Shown here: piece after piece, positions 30,792-41,998 of the stretch
How positions within the stretch are numbered: the stretch's first letter is position 1
Layout: every line of letters starts with the position of its first letter
Assembly: GCA_030611805.1 (NCBI GenBank)
Contig: JAUWPB010000007.1
Location: 1 to 42,092 of the forward strand
Length of the DNA stretch: 42,092 bases
Reading direction: 5' to 3'
Source of the DNA: Nanobdellota archaeon
GTDB lineage: Archaea > Nanobdellota > Nanobdellia > Pacearchaeales > GW2011-AR1
The notes under the pieces: model-generated
The model's database searches: none
Told to the model about the DNA's origin: nothing
What the model saw: only the letters and a program-made list of their open reading frames with translations
Translations under genes and position numbers: made by a program

Positions 30792-31802
30792 TTAAAACTC
30801 TCTCCAATCAATACTCAAGTCCATAAAATCAATCTCTGCAAATCTATTAAGATTTATTTTCCCTTTATTTGTTAAATATTTGAAAATTTCCATCACCTGA
30901 ATATTTGCTACTGCTCCAGCAATAGGTCCTAAATTCCCTGTTTGTTTTATATCCCTTATTTTTTCCAATTTTTTTAAAGGATCCATTCTTTTTTGGTAAT
31001 TAATAAAATCATCAAAAGTTCTTGTTACGCCCGGGATGATAATTGGTCCAACCATTCCTAAATGTAAATTATATCCTCCTGCAACACAATAAGGGATTTC
31101 CTTTTTAGATGCATAGCCATCAATAATTTTTGTTGTTTCTACAACCGAAGGTGAATCAGCACAATTTACTAAAAAATTACAACCAGAAACAATTTCTTCA
31201 AGATCTTCCTTAGGCGATACTATTTTTTTAAAAGGTATAATATTGGCATCTTTTATCTTTTCTTTTATAACATCTACCTTATATCTCCCAATATCTCTTG
31301 AATCAAAAAATAGTTGTCTATTAAAATTAGTTTCCTCTACAACATCTGGATCAGTTATTCTTATTTCTCCAACTCCAATTTGGTATAAACCGTTTACAAT
31401 CCATGTGCCTATTCCCCCTACTCCAAAAACTGCAATTTTAGAGTTTTCTATTTGTTTTTGAAGTTTTAATGTTTCTTCTTGAGAGTCAGTTAGTTCATCT
31501 AAAAACAACAATTGTTTAGAATACCTCCTTTGTTCTGAATACTCATTATATCTTCTAATGATCCCTTCTTTTTCTAAAGCTTGTAGACATAAATTTATGT
31601 CTTGTGTTTTATACTTAGAAGATAATCTATTTATTAAATCAGACTCTAAAGTTTCTGATACAAGAGAATTAATTATCTCTTTAACTAATGAATCAACTTG
31701 AAATTTCTTTATTCTTCTTGTTGCGGTTGAAACAAAAGTATAATTGTCGTCGACATCTTTTAATATATAAAGTGAGTCTTTAATTTTTAGTTTATGAGTC
31801 AT
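30792..31802 (-). CDS. E1/ThiF-family adenylating enzyme with N-terminal PqqD-like domain
   Basis: Residues 1-90 form a winged-helix-like PqqD/RRE domain (LKIKDSLYILKDVDDNYTFV ... ALEKEGIIRR), which in RiPP systems binds the precursor leader. The rest is an E1 fold: GVGGIG (127-132) for ATP, ITDPDVVEETNFNRQLFF with the conserved Asp and Arg, a Lys at 175 and a C-terminal crossover. No zinc CxxC pairs or catalytic Cys loop are obvious. The layout matches MccB-like or cyclodehydratase-partner E1 enzymes, which activate a peptide carboxylate or backbone. Its start overlaps the TraB-like gene by 11 bp. It belongs to the minus-strand island 30792-33135. Confidence 0.78.
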   Translation of the reverse strand: MTHKLKIKDSLYILKDVDDNYTFVSTATRRIKKFQVDSLVKEIINSLVSETLESDLINRLSSKYKTQDINLCLQALEKEGIIRRYNEYSEQRRYSKQLLFLDELTDSQEETLKLQKQIENSKIAVFGVGGIGTWIVNGLYQIGVGEIRITDPDVVEETNFNRQLFFDSRDIGRYKVDVIKEKIKDANIIPFKKIVSPKEDLEEIVSGCNFLVNCADSPSVVETTKIIDGYASKKEIPYCVAGGYNLHLGMVGPIIIPGVTRTFDDFINYQKRMDPLKKLEKIRDIKQTGNLGPIAGAVANIQVMEIFKYLTNKGKINLNRFAEIDFMDLSIDWREF

Positions 31803-32373
31803 TTGAAATTATCTCCTTGTATTTAATGTCCTTATCATTGGTTGGTTCAAATAAAGGTTTATTATTTTTATCGTAAGGGAGAATTAGCTTATAATTTTTT
31901 AATTTTTTTCTTAAAAATGACTTTTCTCTTAAATGCCAACTGCCCAAAATAATAATTATTGGACGAGAAGTTTTTTTATTGTATTCTAGAATTTTATTGA
32001 GATGAAGTCTTTCTCTTGATTTAATTATCTTATTGAGTTCTTCATCCTCTGACTTGGTAAGCTCTTCCTGATTTTTAATCTTTTTTCTTAAAATATTATT
32101 AAATCCAAAATTTTTAATATCAATTCCAATTAACTTGATGCCTTTGTTAAAACATAATTTAACTAACTTCTCTATTTCTTCAAAAGAAGTCATATCAGAA
32201 ATCTTTTTACTTTGAAATAGTCCATTAAATTTTTCTTTAGAATCCAGCTTTAAATCTTCTAATTTTTCACAGAGTATAAATTCTGGTTTTATTAGTTCTA
32301 TTATTTCTTTTTGTTTTAAGAAATCATCTATAAAACCATGAGTGCTACCTATAAGAATAGAAGAAAATTTCAT
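31792..32373 (-). CDS. TraB/Tiki-superfamily protein (GX2H motifs)
   Basis: The 193-residue protein has the two GX2H motifs of the TraB/Tiki group, GSTH near 9-12 and GSWH near 146, with an intervening Glu (FILCEKLEDL) and Arg (KSRERLHLNK). Bacterial TraB/PrgY proteins block self-sensing of peptide pheromones, and Tiki proteins are metalloproteases. No signal peptide. It overlaps the E1-like gene by 11 bp and lies next to the candidate peptide at 32393. A role in peptide processing or immunity is inferred. Confidence 0.68.
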   Translation of the reverse strand: MKFSSILIGSTHGFIDDFLKQKEIIELIKPEFILCEKLEDLKLDSKEKFNGLFQSKKISDMTSFEEIEKLVKLCFNKGIKLIGIDIKNFGFNNILRKKIKNQEELTKSEDEELNKIIKSRERLHLNKILEYNKKTSRPIIIILGSWHLREKSFLRKKLKNYKLILPYDKNNKPLFEPTNDKDIKYKEIISNDS

Positions 32374-32392
32374 TTTTGTTTTTGAAAAAAGG

Positions 32393-32536
32393 TTACATCC
32401 AATATTTAATACTTGTTCCTGCTGAGTAAACTTTTTCTTCTACCAACTTAAATCCTTGGTAAATTGGTTTTTCCACAGGGGTCTTTTCTTCTTTAAGTTC
32501 AACCTTTTCTAAAGTTTTTTCTAATTTTGCCATCAT
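32393..32536 (-). CDS. Candidate RiPP precursor peptide (47 residues)
   Basis: The two-Met start (MMAKLEKTLEKVELKEEK) leads into a Lys/Glu-rich leader, then PVEKPIYQGFKLVEEK and a C-terminal segment KVYSAGTSIKYWM before TAA at 32393-32395. Short length, charged leader and distinct aromatic C-terminus fit a RiPP precursor. It lies 19 bp upstream of the TraB-like gene, with the E1/PqqD-like enzyme next. A TATA box TTTAAATA about 25 nt before the ATG gives a leaderless transcript, and an AGGTG Shine-Dalgarno-like site also precedes it. No Cys is present, so ring closure by Cys or lanthionine is excluded. The final Met or a backbone amide is a possible target. Confidence 0.5.
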   Translation of the reverse strand: MMAKLEKTLEKVELKEEKTPVEKPIYQGFKLVEEKVYSAGTSIKYWM

Positions 32537-32551
32537 AAATTAACACCTTTA

Positions 32552-32563
32552 AACTATTTAAAT
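32552..32563 (-). promoter_or_regulatory. Promoter core of the peptide gene
   Basis: ATTTAAATAGTT (minus strand) lies 16-27 nt before the peptide ATG and is identical to 33154-33165 before the lipoprotein gene. Equal spacing to both starts suggests co-regulation. Confidence 0.6.
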
Positions 32564-32582
32564 TTTATTATGCTTGGGGTTT

Positions 32583-33135
32583 CTAAACACCCCCTCCTGC
32601 AGCTCCTCCTCCAGAACTACTTCCAGCAGAACTAGGTGAACTTGGACCAATGCTTCCGCCTTCACTTTTCATTCCAGGAGTTTGAATAGAAAATTTATTC
32701 CCCTCTTTTAACCATATTATTGGATTGCTCTTTAAGTAAGAATCACTGCCATAAATTTTCCCAATTTTATTTCCTTTGTCATCTAAAATATATGCCCCTC
32801 CAACATAATCATTACCCTGACTTGCATTTTCTTTTATTTTTGAAGTTCTTTTTTTAAGTTCCTCACTATCTGAAATAGGACAATTCCATAAACTAGAATC
32901 TAATGAACCTTTTGGAAAACTTATAATTGCCTCTGGATTGCTGCCACAAGGAGTTTGACGATATTCATTGCCTTGAACCATAGCCCCCGGTTTCAAAATA
33001 AGGTATTAAAGCATCATTGTCCCTCTTGATTTTTCCATAACTTGCACAGCCCATAAGAGTACTGCCTAAAAATACGCCCGCACAAGTTATCCCGACCAAA
33101 CCTTTTGCAATTTTTTTTAATAATGTTTTTTTCAT
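32583..33135 (-). pseudogene. Lipoprotein with Gly/Ser-rich tail, frameshifted
   Basis: ATG 33135 starts a lipoprotein signal (MKKTLLKKIAKGLVGITCAG ... STLMGC, lipobox Cys at residue 30). The frame then fails at a run of four A (32995-32998, plus strand). Removing one base gives DNDALIPY-LKPGAMVQGNEY and continues to a beta-rich domain and a C-terminal low-complexity tail (SIGPSSPSSAGSSSGGGAAG). Without the correction the products are a 56-residue peptide and a 137-residue ORF from a TTG. The same type of single-base shift occurs at 30090. It belongs to the RiPP-like island and shares its promoter core. Confidence 0.6.
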
Positions 33136-33703: not shown

Positions 33704-33805
33704 ATGGAAATAAAAAAAATTTCAGAATATGAATGGGAAATTCCAAAGACAGGAGAAATGAAAGTTCCAGATAAACATAAGGTATTTAAAGTATTAGTCT
33801 TTTAA
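33704..33805 (+). pseudogene. Duplicated rtcB 5' fragment
   Basis: The 33-codon frame reads MEIKKISEYEWEIPKTGEMK then VP, matching the RtcB N-terminus and the intact gene's KWMYEIPKEGDMNVP, after which it diverges and stops. It starts directly at the archease stop, where rtcB would normally begin. A homing endonuclease gene follows 6 bp later. This is the displaced 5' end of rtcB. Confidence 0.75.
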
Positions 33806-33811
33806 AAATAT

Positions 33812-34699
33812 ATGAAAATTGATAAATATCTTGTTTCTCTTCATGCATATTTATGTGGTGATGGTTATGTCAGTAAAAATCCTAAACTACAAAAGAAAAA
33901 AAATTATAAAATTGGTTTGAGAAATACTAATTTAGTTCTATTAAAAGATTTTCAAGAAAAATTTAACAAAGTTTTTGGAATTCAACCTAATCTAACCGAA
34001 GGAGAAAGATGTGAAAAAGGTTCAAGAGAAATCCATACTATATTAATAAATAAATTTGGATCTTTTCATTCAAATGAATGGCGGGCCCCAACACTAAATA
34101 AAAATTTATCTAAATATTGGTTAAGAACATTTTTTGATTGTGAAGGATGGGTTTTTTGTAAGAGTCATCAGAATAGACATATAGGTTTGGATAGTATAAA
34201 TGAAAAAGGTTTGGACCAAATAATCAAAATGTTAAATTACCTTGGGATAAAAACTATTAAAAAGGTCAATAAGAAAAAAGGAATTTTTAGGATATTTATT
34301 TATGGAAAAGAGAATCTAATAAAATTTAAAGAGGAAATTAACTTTTTTCACCCAAATAAAAAAGAAAAGTTAGATCGTGCCATAAAGGATTTTGTTAATT
34401 ATAAGTGGACTTTCCCAAAAGACAGAATACAATGCAAAAAATTTGTTAGAGAAGTCTTAATTAAGAAGTGTAGAATAAAAAAACCTAAATATATCAGGAT
34501 AATTACAAAGGAAGTTCAAAATTTAATAGAACTTCAAAAGTTATTGAAAAAGTTTTACAATATTAATTCATTAGTAAATAAAAGTAGGAATGGTATAGGA
34601 ACAATTTATTATGAAATGAATATCAATAAAAAAGAAGATGTTCAGAAATTAATTAATTTAAAAGTAATTCCAAATATATTTAATGTTAAAAATATTTGA
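33812..34699 (+). CDS. LAGLIDADG homing endonuclease (free-standing)
   Basis: Two LAGLIDADG-like helices are visible: LHAYLCGDGYV near 9-19 and LRTFFDCEGWV near 107-117, each with an acidic metal ligand. The 295-residue length fits a single-chain two-repeat enzyme. It sits between the rtcB fragment and intact rtcB, 6 bp from each. It is not in frame with rtcB, and no intein splice residues (N-terminal Cys, C-terminal His-Asn) are present. It is therefore a free-standing gene that probably cuts a site in rtcB 5' DNA. Confidence 0.85.
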   Translation: MKIDKYLVSLHAYLCGDGYVSKNPKLQKKKNYKIGLRNTNLVLLKDFQEKFNKVFGIQPNLTEGERCEKGSREIHTILINKFGSFHSNEWRAPTLNKNLSKYWLRTFFDCEGWVFCKSHQNRHIGLDSINEKGLDQIIKMLNYLGIKTIKKVNKKKGIFRIFIYGKENLIKFKEEINFFHPNKKEKLDRAIKDFVNYKWTFPKDRIQCKKFVREVLIKKCRIKKPKYIRIITKEVQNLIELQKLLKKFYNINSLVNKSRNGIGTIYYEMNINKKEDVQKLINLKVIPNIFNVKNI

Positions 34700-34705
34700 T
34701 TTAAA

Positions 34706-36121
34706 ATGTATAAAGAAAAAGCTAAAAAGATTGACAAATGGATGTATGAAATTCCTAAGGAAGGGGATATGAATGTGCCAGTAAGAGTTTTTCTATCTGA
34801 AAAGTTATTTAATGAAGTAGAAGATGAAACATTTGGACAGCTTGTAAATGTTTCAAAACTCCCAGGAATTTTAAAATATTCTGTTGGAATGAGTGATATT
34901 CATCTTGGTTATGGTTTCCCAATAGGAGGGGTTGCAGCATTTGATTTGGAAAAAGGAATAATTTCTCCAGGAGCAACAGGATTTGACATAAATTGCGGAG
35001 TTCGTCTCTTGGCTACAAATATTCCCATTAAAGAATTCATAAAAAAAAGAAAAGAGATTCTTCATGACACAAAACGAACAATTCCGTCTGGGCTTGGAAG
35101 AGGGGGAAAAAGATATTCCAAAGAAATAATTAAAGAAGTTCTTGTTAAAGGTTCAGAATGGGCTTTTGAAAATAAATTTGCCACAAAAGAGGATTTAGAA
35201 CACACAGAAGAAAACGGAAAAATAAATGGGGCAAATCCAGAGGATGTTTCAGACAGGGCTCTCTCAAGAGGTCTCCCTCAATTAGGAACCTTAGGAGCAG
35301 GAAATCATTTTATAGATTTTCAGGTTGTTGATGAAATCTTTGACGAAAAAACTGCAAAAGTCTTTGGGCTGGAAAAAGGTACACTATGTGTTATGATTCA
35401 TTGCGGTTCAAGAGGATTAGGACATCAGGTTGCTTCTGATTACATAAGATTAATTGAAGAAAAATATGGTGCAGAAAAGTTTCCTGACAGAGAATTAGGA
35501 TATGCTCCAATAAAAAGTGAACTCGGAAAAAAATACTTTTCTGCCATGAAGTGTGCGGTTAATTTTGCGTTTTGCAACAGGCAAATGATAATGTATGAAA
35601 TAAGAGAATTGTTAAAAAGATATTATCCTAATTCAAAAACAAATTTAGTATATGACCTGGCTCATAATATTTCAAAAATAGAAAAACACACATTTAACAA
35701 AACTGAAAAAGATTTACTTATTATAAGAAAAGGTGCGACAAGATGTTTTGGTCCTGAAAGAAAAGAGATTCCTGTTGTATATAGAAAAGTGGGACAGCCA
35801 GTCATCATTCCCGGAAGCATGTCAACGCCTTCTTTTATTTTAGTTGGGACAAAAAAAGCTGAAGAATTAAGTTTTGCCAGTTCAGCACACGGAGCAGGAA
35901 GAGCTCATTCCAGAACATGGTCACACAAAACATTAGATGTAAAACAAATAAAAGCAATACTTGCAAAAAAAGACATAATTCTTGAAGGAAGTTTCAAGGC
36001 ATCAATTGAAGAATCTGAATTTTCTTATAAAGATGTTGAAGAAGTTATTGATGCAACAGTAAACGCAGGGTTGGGAAAAAAAGTTGCAAAACTTAGACCC
36101 GTGGCAGTTATGATTGGGTAG
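34706..36121 (+). CDS. rtcB: RNA 3'-phosphate/2',3'-cyclic-phosphate ligase RtcB
   Basis: The 471-residue protein has family motifs: MSDIHLGYGFPIGGVAAFD, FDINCGVRL (metal Cys97), GAGNHF (His201), HCGSRGLGHQ (His232) and SAHGAGRAHSR with the guanylylated His395. RtcB joins tRNA halves after intron removal, which matters for the intron-containing tRNA at 23300. Compared with the fragment at 33704 it has its own N-terminus (MYKEKAKKIDKWMYEIPKEG), complete and in frame. It has no intein. Confidence 0.95.
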   Translation: MYKEKAKKIDKWMYEIPKEGDMNVPVRVFLSEKLFNEVEDETFGQLVNVSKLPGILKYSVGMSDIHLGYGFPIGGVAAFDLEKGIISPGATGFDINCGVRLLATNIPIKEFIKKRKEILHDTKRTIPSGLGRGGKRYSKEIIKEVLVKGSEWAFENKFATKEDLEHTEENGKINGANPEDVSDRALSRGLPQLGTLGAGNHFIDFQVVDEIFDEKTAKVFGLEKGTLCVMIHCGSRGLGHQVASDYIRLIEEKYGAEKFPDRELGYAPIKSELGKKYFSAMKCAVNFAFCNRQMIMYEIRELLKRYYPNSKTNLVYDLAHNISKIEKHTFNKTEKDLLIIRKGATRCFGPERKEIPVVYRKVGQPVIIPGSMSTPSFILVGTKKAEELSFASSAHGAGRAHSRTWSHKTLDVKQIKAILAKKDIILEGSFKASIEESEFSYKDVEEVIDATVNAGLGKKVAKLRPVAVMIG

Positions 36122-37389: not shown

Positions 37390-37842
37390 ATGGATAAAAA
37401 TATAAAAATAAATGAAGATGAAAACTGCATTTTAATTTCTGTTAATCCTGAAATTTACCCTCTTGATGTAATATATTCTGCAGCATATGTTTTTTTAGAA
37501 AAGGCTTATCTGTTACTTGAAGGAGACCCAAAAAAAGAGATAATTATTAAATTAACTGCTAAAGAAAGAATAAATAAAGAAGAATTGAAAAAAATAGGAA
37601 AAGAATTTCTCAATGAATTAATTAGTTATGGGTTTTATAAAAAACAATCAGAAAAAAATAATTTAATACGGCAAATAATTTTGCAAAGAGTACTCTTAAC
37701 AGGGGCAGGAGAAAATAATGATGACTGTAATTCCCTAATGGAAGAAACAGAGGAAGAGGATTATTTAGATGATCCAAAAGGCATAGCAATCCCTTGGGAA
37801 GAAAAGTATGGAGACAAAAAAAATGGCAATTCAGATAAATAA
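37390..37842 (+). CDS. hxsD: HxsD-like protein of the His-Xaa-Ser system
   Basis: The 150-residue protein has the HxsD pattern: a start with a beta strand, YPLDVIYSAAYVFLEKAYLL, a strand EIIIKLTAKE, then FLNELISYGFYKKQSEKNNL and RQIILQRVLLTGAG. HxsD is required in the Hxs locus, together with two radical SAM enzymes and the HxsA substrate. The acidic tail (MEETEEEDYLDDPKGIAIPW) is longer than usual. Its end overlaps the next small gene by 35 bp. Confidence 0.72.
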   Translation: MDKNIKINEDENCILISVNPEIYPLDVIYSAAYVFLEKAYLLLEGDPKKEIIIKLTAKERINKEELKKIGKEFLNELISYGFYKKQSEKNNLIRQIILQRVLLTGAGENNDDCNSLMEETEEEDYLDDPKGIAIPWEEKYGDKKNGNSDK

Positions 37843-38071
37843 AGAAAAAAATGAAATTTGCATATTATTGAATAAAGATTTTTATAATATTGAAGAAATA
37901 AAAAGTACCTTAAAAGATTTCAAAGAGGTTTGTAAGGGAGAAGTAAAAGAAAAGAAGGAAAATCAAATTAAGATAATTTTAAAACCAAATGAAAATTCAG
38001 TGATAAATTCATTAGGGCATGAATTTTGTAATTATTCCCTTGGATTAATGAAAAATCACTCAGTAGTATAA
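37808..38071 (+). CDS. Second HxsD-like small protein
   Basis: The 87-residue protein reads METKKMAIQINKEKNEICIL, then IKIILKPNENSVINSLGHEF and CNYSLGLMKN. The strand-helix order and the F-x-N-x-x-L-x-L-M end recall a shortened HxsD. It overlaps the preceding gene in another frame and is followed directly by hxsB (1-bp gap), so it is in the operon. A start at the internal Met (MAIQINKE) is also possible. Confidence 0.6.
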   Translation: METKKMAIQINKEKNEICILLNKDFYNIEEIKSTLKDFKEVCKGEVKEKKENQIKIILKPNENSVINSLGHEFCNYSLGLMKNHSVV

Positions 38072-38072
38072 A

Positions 38073-39503
38073 ATGAATGACAAATCTAAACAAAATCATT
38101 TAATTAATAATTATCGGCATAAAAAATTTGGGAATGAATTTTTAGTCACTACTGACCATGGCTCTTGGATATTTCTATCTGAAAAAGAATTTGAAAAATT
38201 AAAAAAAGATTTAATTGAAAAAGACTCTGAATTTTGCAAAAAATTAGAAGAAACAGGAATAATCATAACAACCAAAAACATAAAGACAATCTTAAGAAAA
38301 TTAGAAAAAAGAAATGACTTTCTTTATCAGGGAACGAGTTTGCATATAGTTATTCCTACATTAAGATGTAATCAAAAATGCATATATTGTCATGCCAGTT
38401 CCAAATCATTAAATGAAAAAAAGGGGGAGATGGATGAGGAAACTGCAAAAAAAGTAATAGATTTTATTTTTCAAAGTCCTTCAGAATATATTGCAATTGA
38501 ATTTCAGGGAGGGGAGCCATTATTAAATTTTAAAATTGTTAGTTATATGATACATTATGCAAAAAAATTAAATAAAAAATATAAAAAAAATTTAATTTTT
38601 AGGATTGTTTCCAATTTTAGTATTTTGGATGAAGAAAAATTAAATTTTTTGATTAAAGAAAATGTTGGGATTTGCACATCACTTGATGGTCCAAATTATC
38701 TTCATAATAAAAATAGGCCTTTCGCAAATAAAAAAGAGTCTCATCATCTTGTTGAAAAAGGCATCCAAAAATTAAATAAAAAATATAAAAAAAATAATAT
38801 AAAACATCAAAGAGCAAATGCGTTAATAACAATAACAAAATATTCTCTTCAATATCCCAAAGAAATAATTGATGAATATGTTGGACTGGGACTTAAAGAC
38901 ATTCATCTTAGATTTCTTAATAATTTAGGGGATGCAAGACAAATATGGGATGAAATAAGTTATTCATGTGAGGAATTTATGGATTTCTGGAAAAAATCTA
39001 TTGATTATATTTTAGAGATGAATAAAAAAGGAGTTTTCTTTAGAGAAAGAGGTTGTTTAATTATCTTGCAAAAAATTTTAACTGAAACAGACCCTAATTT
39101 TGTGGACATAAGAAGTCCTTGTGGTGCTGCAATAGAACAGTTATCTTATACACCTGAAGGAGATATTTTTAGTTGCGATGAAGCAAGAATGGTAGGAGAA
39201 GATTTATTTAAATTGGGAAATGTAAAAAAAGATACCTATCGAAAAATTATTTCCTCTAATCAAACTTGTAGTTTAGTCGCTTCTTCAATTAATGACTGCC
39301 AAATATGTGATTATTGTGTTTACAAACCTTATTGTGGCATATGCCCGGTATGTAATTTTGTTGAGCAAGGGAGCATAATTGCAAAAACTCTGGAAACTCC
39401 CAGATGTAAAATTTATAAAGCCCAGTTTACTTATCTCTTTGAGAAACTTAAAAATTTAGAAAATAAAAAAATTTTTCAGGACTGGATAAACAAAACTAAA
39501 TAA
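38073..39503 (+). CDS. hxsB: HxsB-like radical SAM/SPASM peptide-modifying enzyme
   Basis: The 476-residue protein has the 4Fe-4S site TLRCNQKCIYCHA (C99, C103, C106), the SAM-binding EFQGGEPLLNF and, near the C-terminus, a Cys-rich SPASM-like segment (CQICDYCVYKPYCGICPVC). The order GTSLHI...IVDEYVGLGLKDIHLRFL ... YRKIISSN matches bacterial HxsB throughout. It should modify the H-x-S repeats of HxsA. It begins 1 bp after the small HxsD-like gene, and hxsA follows 4 bp later. Confidence 0.88.
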   Translation: MNDKSKQNHLINNYRHKKFGNEFLVTTDHGSWIFLSEKEFEKLKKDLIEKDSEFCKKLEETGIIITTKNIKTILRKLEKRNDFLYQGTSLHIVIPTLRCNQKCIYCHASSKSLNEKKGEMDEETAKKVIDFIFQSPSEYIAIEFQGGEPLLNFKIVSYMIHYAKKLNKKYKKNLIFRIVSNFSILDEEKLNFLIKENVGICTSLDGPNYLHNKNRPFANKKESHHLVEKGIQKLNKKYKKNNIKHQRANALITITKYSLQYPKEIIDEYVGLGLKDIHLRFLNNLGDARQIWDEISYSCEEFMDFWKKSIDYILEMNKKGVFFRERGCLIILQKILTETDPNFVDIRSPCGAAIEQLSYTPEGDIFSCDEARMVGEDLFKLGNVKKDTYRKIISSNQTCSLVASSINDCQICDYCVYKPYCGICPVCNFVEQGSIIAKTLETPRCKIYKAQFTYLFEKLKNLENKKIFQDWINKTK

Positions 39504-39507
39504 CAAA

Positions 39508-39795
39508 ATGAAAAAAGAGGATAAAAAGTTAAGAATACCCAAGATTAAAAAGAAAATTCATGCTTTTCTTGTAGGAGAAGAAGGAAAAATTTCCAAGCAA
39601 TCTTTGCTTAAATCAGGATTAATTTTAGGAACATTTGGAGCCCTTATTGGAACAGTATCTCCTGCAACCAATACTCTTTCATTGGGAGAATATGAGGGGG
39701 GGTCCGCAACAGCAACTCATAGTTCACACAGTTCTCATGGAAGTCACGGTAGCCATGGAAGTCACGGTAGTCACGGAAGTCATAATAGTTGGTGA
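39508..39795 (+). CDS. hxsA: HxsA-like substrate with eight H-x-S repeats and terminal Trp
   Basis: The 95-residue protein has a basic leader (MKKEDKKLRIPKIKKKIHAF), LVGEEGKISKQSLLKSG and a hydrophobic stretch (LILGTFGALIGTVSPATN) that could target the membrane. A linker (LSLGEYEGGSATAT) leads to residues 71-94, which are eight HxS triplets: two HSS, five HGS and one HNS, then W95. This is the HxsA design: the radical SAM enzymes act on the repeat tail. Only 4 bp separate it from hxsB. Confidence 0.85.
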   Translation: MKKEDKKLRIPKIKKKIHAFLVGEEGKISKQSLLKSGLILGTFGALIGTVSPATNTLSLGEYEGGSATATHSSHSSHGSHGSHGSHGSHGSHNSW

Positions 39796-39820
39796 TTAAA
39801 ATAATAAATTACAATATAGA

Positions 39821-40552
39821 ATGGACAAAATAAATAATGAGGGACAAGGGAAAAGATTTAAAATTAACTTTAAATTTTTATTTTTTATTTCAGTAATATT
39901 CATTATTATTTTCTTCATAAGCTGGGGAAGTATAACTTTTTTAACAAAAGAAGTTGTTTGTGGAGATGGAATTTGCAACAAAGATGAAAATGTAGAAAAT
40001 TGTCCCGAAGATTGCATCATTATCCCTTTGACAAATATAGAAGAAGAGTTTGCTTTGTGTAAAATGGACGCAGAAAAGGCGTGTTTGGCTATTACTAGCA
40101 AGGATATGTCTTATTGCGATTCTATAAATTTTGAGGTTATGAGAGATAATTGTCTAAGAACAACTATTTTTCTGTTTGATATTTTTGAGAATAAAGATAA
40201 AGCATCTTGCGTTAAAATAAAAGAAATGCCCTCTGAAGAGTGTTCAAATATTATTGATTCTATAAAAATAGAAGACATAACTAACTGTGAAAGCGAAGCA
40301 TGTGAATATGCACTTAGTTTATATTTGGCCAATTCACAAAAAAATATTGATTTATGCGAAGAGATAGCTGATGAAAACACCAAAAACAACTGCAAACTTT
40401 ATTTAACTTCTAATATGGATTATTGTGATTATAGTTATTGTAGCGATGTTTATAATATTCATATGAGAGAACAAACTGGCGATTTAAGTTATTGTGATAA
40501 GGTAATTAATCCTTCCGGAAAACAAGCATGTTTAGGGTATAAGAAAACTTAA
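39821..40552 (+). CDS. Membrane-anchored Cys-rich protein of the Hxs locus
   Basis: An uncleaved N-terminal membrane helix (FLFFISVIFIIIFFISWGSI) is followed by CGDGICNKDENVENCPEDC, the same module seen in the subtilisin tail and pilin-like protein. Then comes a Cys-spaced helical domain (ALCKMDAEKACLAI, YCDSINFEV, SYCSDVYNI) of about 14 further Cys. It lies between hxsA and the second radical SAM gene. It could receive or hold the modified HxsA product outside the cell. No named family. Confidence 0.65.
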   Translation: MDKINNEGQGKRFKINFKFLFFISVIFIIIFFISWGSITFLTKEVVCGDGICNKDENVENCPEDCIIIPLTNIEEEFALCKMDAEKACLAITSKDMSYCDSINFEVMRDNCLRTTIFLFDIFENKDKASCVKIKEMPSEECSNIIDSIKIEDITNCESEACEYALSLYLANSQKNIDLCEEIADENTKNNCKLYLTSNMDYCDYSYCSDVYNIHMREQTGDLSYCDKVINPSGKQACLGYKKT

Positions 40553-40576
40553 TAACTTAAAAAAATTCCTTCTTAA

Positions 40577-41998
<1,422 letters not shown>

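Follow-up and report, generated by a model that had tools for sequence, protein, structure and literature searches.

What does the minus-strand gene group on this archaeal contig make, which of its genes belong together, and what chemistry would they perform? The window (the whole stretch of 42,092 nucleotides that we analysed) is part of an 855-kb draft genome, and a preliminary description had seen in it a RiPP-like island of four genes: an E1 enzyme with a PqqD-like N-terminus, a TraB-like protein with two GxxH motifs, a short peptide with an aromatic end and a lipoprotein. The positions of these open reading frames are borne out, including the start of the lipoprotein at 33135 (Table 1). 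We consider it likely that the first three genes form a minimal archaeal cassette for a RiPP of the ThiF-like adenylyltransferase type, in which a leader-bound E1 would adenylate the peptide's C-terminal Met and, most likely, close a macrocycle.

Table 1. Features of the window and genomes that carry the cassette; an empty cell means that no value applies or is given.
Feature	Position	Strand	Basis or remark
RRE-E1 (ThiF-like adenylyltransferase), 336 aa	30792..31802	-	Pfam ThiF, profile and fold matches, tree
Adenylation domain, residues 108-333	30804..31481	-	Pfam span; invariants over 8 homologues
RRE-type (PqqD-like winged helix) domain, residues 1-90	31533..31802	-	Predicted fold, hhalign
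TIKI/ChaN/TraB-superfamily (GxxH) protein, 193 aa	31792..32373	-	AF2, Foldseek, weak Pfam matches in homologues
Precursor peptide, 47 aa, MMAKLEKTLEKVELKEEKTPVEKPIYQGFKLVEEKVYSAGTSIKYWM	32393..32536	-	ORF and homologues in 10 other genomes
Codons of C-terminal heptapeptide TSIKYWM (proposed core)	32396..32416	-	Codon table over 8 loci
Leader motif Y-x-G-[LF]-x-x-[VI]-E (proposed RRE-binding stretch)	32438..32461	-	Conservation in 11 peptides
TATA-like box TTTAAATA	32555..32562	-	Read by eye upstream of peptide
Lipoprotein, two ORFs	32965-33135 and 32583-32996	-	Lipobox LMGC
rtcB region	33704-36121
ORF before rtcB	33812-34699		Weak match to RtcB intein part
His-Xaa-Ser locus	37390-41995
HxsD-like	37390-37839
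HxsB radical SAM	38073-39500		TIGR03978, 1.5e-142
HxsA-like precursor	39508-39792		End SHGSHGSHNSW
HxsC4-like radical SAM	40577-41995
Cassettes in other genomes			L021/G026, L022/G568, L023/G478, L024/G038, L025/G460, L026/G450, L027/G089, L070/G501, L047+L072/G497
Broken cassette			G363 (L035, L075)

We begin with the enzyme. The E1 matches Pfam ThiF strongly (E = 5.5e-39), and a profile built from four of the E1s has MccB (2e-25) and PaaA (1.4e-23) as its best solved matches, with ubiquitin E1s, ThiF and MoeB ranking behind both. The AF2 model (pLDDT 81, pTM 0.78) aligns over its whole length, RRE included, with MccB (Foldseek, 1.4e-20) and with PaaA (5.1e-20; TM 0.74 for 5ff5). The GVGGIG loop is conserved together with N159, N161, R162, Q163, K175 and D216, and the GxGGIG pattern, R162, Q163, K175 and D216 are invariant over eight homologues. 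By motif, R162, K175 and D216 correspond to Arg167, Lys180 and Asp225 of EnfB (PMC12250964), and by spacing, Q163 and K175 correspond to Q167 and K179 of IndF (PMC12150305). The E1s of the archaeal cassettes form one clade in the tree (support 98/99) and lie outside the clade of ThiF, MoeB/UbaA and ordinary DPANN ThiF proteins (100/100), which rules out a housekeeping ThiF/MoeB/UbaA identity. One of them (L027:1170-2213) keeps four Cys, in CFDC and CKVC, as bacterial relatives do; the other archaeal members do not have them.

The N-terminus of the E1 is predicted to form strands at residues 4-7, 11-15, 20-25 and 30-35 and helices at 38-46, 53-60 and 66-78. Its first 98 residues align with the N-termini of 13 bacterial RRE-ThiF enzymes (hhalign, 97%, E = 9e-12, 94 of 98 columns), a comparison in which shuffled-sequence controls gave no match; Pfam PqqD is matched weakly, by one member only (0.018). 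Together with the alignment of the model to MccB and PaaA, these results support the PqqD-like RRE proposed earlier. An RRE-type N-terminus with MccB and PaaA as nearest relatives also argues, from profiles and models, for an E1 of the peptide-modifying, RiPP-like kind, as the preliminary description had suggested.

The putative substrate is encoded at the head of the gene group. Every one of the 11 peptides that we compared ends in T-[S/N]-I-[K/M]-Y-W-M followed by the stop codon, and Y(-22), G(-20), Y(-11), T(-7), I(-5), Y(-3), W(-2) and M(-1) are invariant, while one substitution is seen at each of Lys(-4) and Ser(-6); none contains Cys. Both the sequence and the length of the N-terminal half differ between the precursors, which have 44-55 aa; the leader motif, with its Y and G invariant in the 11 peptides and its E present in 10, is probably the stretch bound by the RRE. 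Across eight loci, the last eight codons show 43 synonymous versus 26 changing differences, and the 14 codons before them show 92 versus 199. Because differences in the tail are mostly synonymous and those in the preceding codons mostly are not, selection acts on the protein. The TATA-like box lies about 20-27 bases upstream of the peptide's ATG in the source genome. L023, L024 and L025 have comparable boxes, ribosome-binding-like sites precede the peptide in L022 and L027, and all of these were read by eye. A variable leader, a fixed tail and these upstream boxes are, at the level of sequence, what one would expect of a leader-core precursor at the start of its own operon. The short upstream peptide with an aromatic end can consequently be regarded as precursor-like, its tail being kept in 11 of 11.

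Searches with the E1 found the same three genes, peptide, GxxH protein and E1, in a further 10 DPANN genomes, which belong to several families; the nearest cassette-bearing relatives of the source genome are Pace-, Woese- and Nanoarchaeota drafts, which makes the source itself a DPANN archaeon. The gene order, read from the peptide through the GxxH gene to the E1, is constant, the surroundings of the cassettes are unrelated, and in the window the start of the E1 overlaps the end of the GxxH gene by 11 bases. The cassette is sparse, occurring in 8 of 200 genomes at the level of the order and in 8 of 378 at that of the class (source genome counted in each). Beyond the three genes, we found only unrelated or pairwise matches and no further gene common to the neighborhoods, so that a radical SAM/SPASM gene near L024 and a nitroreductase gene near L026 were rejected as cassette parts. 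No common transporter was found at the cassette loci, in which they differ from most bacterial systems; viral contigs were looked for, and there were none. For six cassette genomes, a search with the exact tail pattern returned exactly one site with zero mismatches per genome, and it thereby located the peptides of G497 and G363, which had not been seen next to the E1. The peptide frame is conserved in every one of the 11 E1-bearing genomes, of which one retains no more than a remnant of the enzyme, and this recurrence in 11 genomes together with the protein-level conservation of the tail is more than chance.

Several cassettes depart from the common form. The E1 is frameshifted or truncated in three of the 11 genomes, which may reflect decay or assembly error. 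In the broken cassette of G363 (L035, L075), the TIKI-like gene on contig C28 ceases to match after about residue 155, and the E1 is reduced to its C-terminal half, which lies on contig C18 and is preceded by unrelated genes. G497 is the sole genome in which an extra gene separates the peptide from the GxxH gene; it encodes a 311-aa protein (L072:16167-17102) with a DDLIDL-type stretch that recalls prenyl transferases, and it has no Pfam match and no convincing PDB match. L022 belongs to another family and nests in the E1 tree among the close relatives of the source genome, which suggests transfer between lineages.

The lipoprotein, in contrast to the preliminary description, does not belong to the island. 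It has no counterpart at the other cassettes and is separated from the peptide by the TATA-like box; among 55 relatives we found no clear homologue and one doubtful partial match (E = 0.007). Since its frame changes at a GGGGG run, its two reading frames are probably one gene carrying a frameshift or a sequencing error, and it is probably a separate, frame-split orphan. Elsewhere in the window there is a second RiPP-type locus, a His-Xaa-Ser system that includes a 243-aa protein in addition to the genes listed in Table 1. The rtcB region resembles an intein with its host gene re-formed farther downstream: a 33-aa ORF resembles the N-extein start of an intein-bearing RtcB, and the ORF that weakly matches the intein is followed by an rtcB with its own start.

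We now turn to the GxxH protein, which carries GSTH at residues 9-12 and GSWH at 144-147. H12, E36, R120 and H147 are invariant in 10 homologues, and this GxxH...E...R...GxxH series has the same order as in canonical TraB. The AF2 model (pLDDT 92) has a single Foldseek match below 1e-3, ChaN (2g5g; E = 4.9e-4, prob 1.00); the next matches are other members of the ChaN/EreA/TIKI-type fold. The source protein matches neither Pfam TraB nor Pfam ChaN/Tiki, weak TraB matches appear in 5 of 10 homologues (best E = 6.1e-4) and ChaN/Tiki matches in 3 of 10, and the curated family cut-off of PF01963 (TraB/PrgY/GumN) is not reached. A direct hhalign comparison with canonical TraB gives E = 0.005 and a probability of 7%, with both GxxH motifs in register. 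The GxxH protein diverges from the canonical TraB of DPANN archaea, which is carried separately in 53 of the 60 genomes of the phylum that were sampled. From the ChaN-type fold and the motif order, together with the missed Pfam cut-off, we place the protein in the TIKI/ChaN/TraB superfamily and not in the TraB family; the missed cut-off rules out canonical TraB identity at the family level. The earlier name TraB-like thus holds for the superfamily and fails for the family, and the link to pheromone control that was drawn from it is an analogy, not evidence.

How might the three proteins act together? The cassette appears, from sequences and models, to combine the features of ThiF-like adenylyltransferase RiPPs, namely adenylation residues, an N-terminal RRE and a linked precursor with a conserved core. 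EnfB and the Ind enzymes act on short aromatic C-terminal motifs that TSIKYWM resembles in kind, and for this reason we propose Met adenylation and ring closure. The peptide would serve as a leader-core precursor, and the RRE of the E1 would bind its leader, probably through the conserved motif; on the model of MccB and IndF, the C-terminus would be threaded into the adenylation site, perhaps that of the partner subunit, and the last, invariant Met would have its carboxylate adenylated in an ATP-dependent step. AMP would then be displaced, most likely by an internal nucleophile, with the loss of water and the formation of a small C-terminal macrocycle. The candidate nucleophiles that fit the conservation are the hydroxyl of Thr(-7) or of Tyr(-3), the residue Tyr(-11), or a backbone amide of the sort used in enterofaecin. 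Since neither Lys(-4) nor Ser(-6) is invariant, both are less likely, which favors Thr(-7), a Tyr hydroxyl or the backbone amide; Trp(-2) is too near the end for an Ind-type ring. Finally, the TIKI-superfamily protein would most likely remove the leader, or else destroy excess product.

The last step invites an alternative, in which the product is still a RiPP, a general protease removes the leader, and the TIKI-like protein provides immunity or shut-off by destroying the mature peptide. TraB and PrgY proteins limit pheromone in a shutdown role. A review of RiPP leader proteases makes no mention of TraB or TIKI proteins. The TIKI-like gene also always lies between the precursor and the E1 (with the extra gene inserted there in G497 only), but such strict linkage to the precursor would equally suit a maturation enzyme. 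In addition, the predicted fold of the TIKI-like protein is short and fully globular, with no membrane segment in the model, and PrgY is unlike such a protein. We therefore regard a shut-off factor as rather unlikely, and a leader protease as its probable role by prediction, with the qualification that the nearest structure, ChaN, is a haem-binding protein. Combining these elements, a new DPANN class of RiPP with both a novel C-terminal linkage on TSIKYWM and a dedicated TIKI-superfamily leader protease is possible, and we propose it tentatively.

A second alternative concerns the fate of the adenylate. Instead of closing a ring, the E1 could join the adenylated C-terminus to an external partner (an amine, lipid, nucleotide or protein), so that the peptide would end up conjugated or amidated. 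EnfB is also able to use free amines to amidate its peptide (PMC12250964), MccB makes a nucleotide conjugate, and any single nucleophilic side chain near the tail of our peptides remains a candidate only. However, the chemistry of MccB requires a C-terminal Asn, where these peptides have Met in 11 of 11, and the loci share no separate nucleotide-modifying or lipid-transfer gene; an external partner is accordingly doubtful. Far less plausible still is a role of the peptide as a sulphur carrier or ubiquitin-like protein whose C-terminus becomes a thiocarboxylate or a protein conjugate: an E1-superfamily enzyme does have as its neighbor a small protein whose C-terminus is fixed, but the peptide does not end in Gly-Gly and is too short for a beta-grasp fold, no sulphur-transfer or E2/E3-type gene is common nearby, the E1 lies outside the ThiF/MoeB/UbaA clade, and most of the archaeal E1s, L027 excepted, do not have the Cys pairs of MoeB and ThiF.

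Under the macrocycle reading, the cassette seems to represent a so far undescribed class of enzyme-modified peptides in archaea. Its near-invariant core and the lack of a common transporter argue against a diversifying antibiotic, and they suggest a product with a fixed target, for example a host-cell signal or a cofactor-like molecule. DPANN archaea are mostly uncultured and host-dependent, and little is known of how they deal with other cells; a three-gene cassette for the production of one fixed-core modified peptide would be a small, fully synthesisable test system. If the reading is true, it extends ThiF-type peptide chemistry to archaea, provides a new substrate tail for a group of enzymes in which new linkages have recently come to light, and offers a candidate new type of leader protease from the TIKI superfamily, which is not known in RiPP maturation.

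We finally compare the cassette with known systems. Described archaeal RiPPs, which are ribosomal peptides with maturases as in the cassette, comprise lanthipeptides and YcaO-related, radical-SAM and lasso peptides, with no ThiF-based class in the survey (PMC12144867). In the open-licence literature, papers on ThiF-type RiPPs either scanned bacteria only or make no mention of archaea, and we found no archaeal member there, an absence that is no proof. RRE-ThiF enzymes bind the leader and adenylate a carboxylate, and a nucleophile then displaces AMP; their products include a phosphoramidate (microcin C), a bicycle (pantocin), a thiolactone (GRC), a macrocyclic imide (enterofaecin) and an indolylamide (Ind).

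Within this family, MccB of microcin C (3h5n, 3h9j, 6om4) is the best profile and fold match to the E1, with the fold matched over its full length, and the same search found a bacterial relative in Sorangium at a microcin C-like locus; nevertheless, a Trojan-horse antibiotic of this type in archaea is highly improbable, as the precursor has 44-55 aa with a leader and ends in Met instead of the required Asn, its fixed core is unlike that of a diversifying antibiotic, and no exporter or S66-type (MccF) immunity gene is common to the loci. The Sorangium locus itself (L028:4369-7792) encodes an MccB-like enzyme, a methyltransferase, an S66 peptidase of the MccF type and a 64-aa ORF ending in EVPN, and is a candidate myxobacterial microcin C-like cluster. 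Acinetobacter and Moraxella plasmids (L107:2298-4771, L110:1245-3706) carry paired ThiF genes and a Cys-containing precursor of 63-66 aa with the common end AWDxYLExNAGVLQY, which is likely another ThiF-type RiPP.

PaaA of pantocin A (5ff5) is the second-best match to the E1, and pantocin A itself is excluded by the absence of its Glu-Glu-Asn core with follower from all 11 peptides. The GRC thiolactone RiPPs are excluded in the same way, by the absence of a C-terminal Cys from the 11 peptides and of a radical SAM gene common to the loci. Enterofaecin and Ind, bacterial RRE-ThiF RiPPs with C-terminal macrocycles, carry conserved aromatic motifs at the C-terminus that are likewise short, WWIVI and NWYFI (PMC12150305, PMC12250964), neither of which occurs here, where the tail is TSIKYWM. 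On the side of the GxxH protein, the ChaN-type fold and the order of its invariant residues are shared with TIKI/TraB/PrgY and ChaN proteins, at a similarity below the Pfam TraB cut-off. Taken as a whole, the cassette resembles IndF/IndA, EnfB/EnfA, GrcB, PaaA and MccB in fusing an RRE to an E1 adenylation domain that keeps its adenylation residues, and it resembles the ThiF-type RiPPs in its adjoining short precursor gene and its conserved, short aromatic C-terminus. It differs from the bacterial systems in being archaeal, in its new tail, in the separate clade of its E1, and in having a TIKI-superfamily protein in place of a transporter or M16 protease common to the loci.
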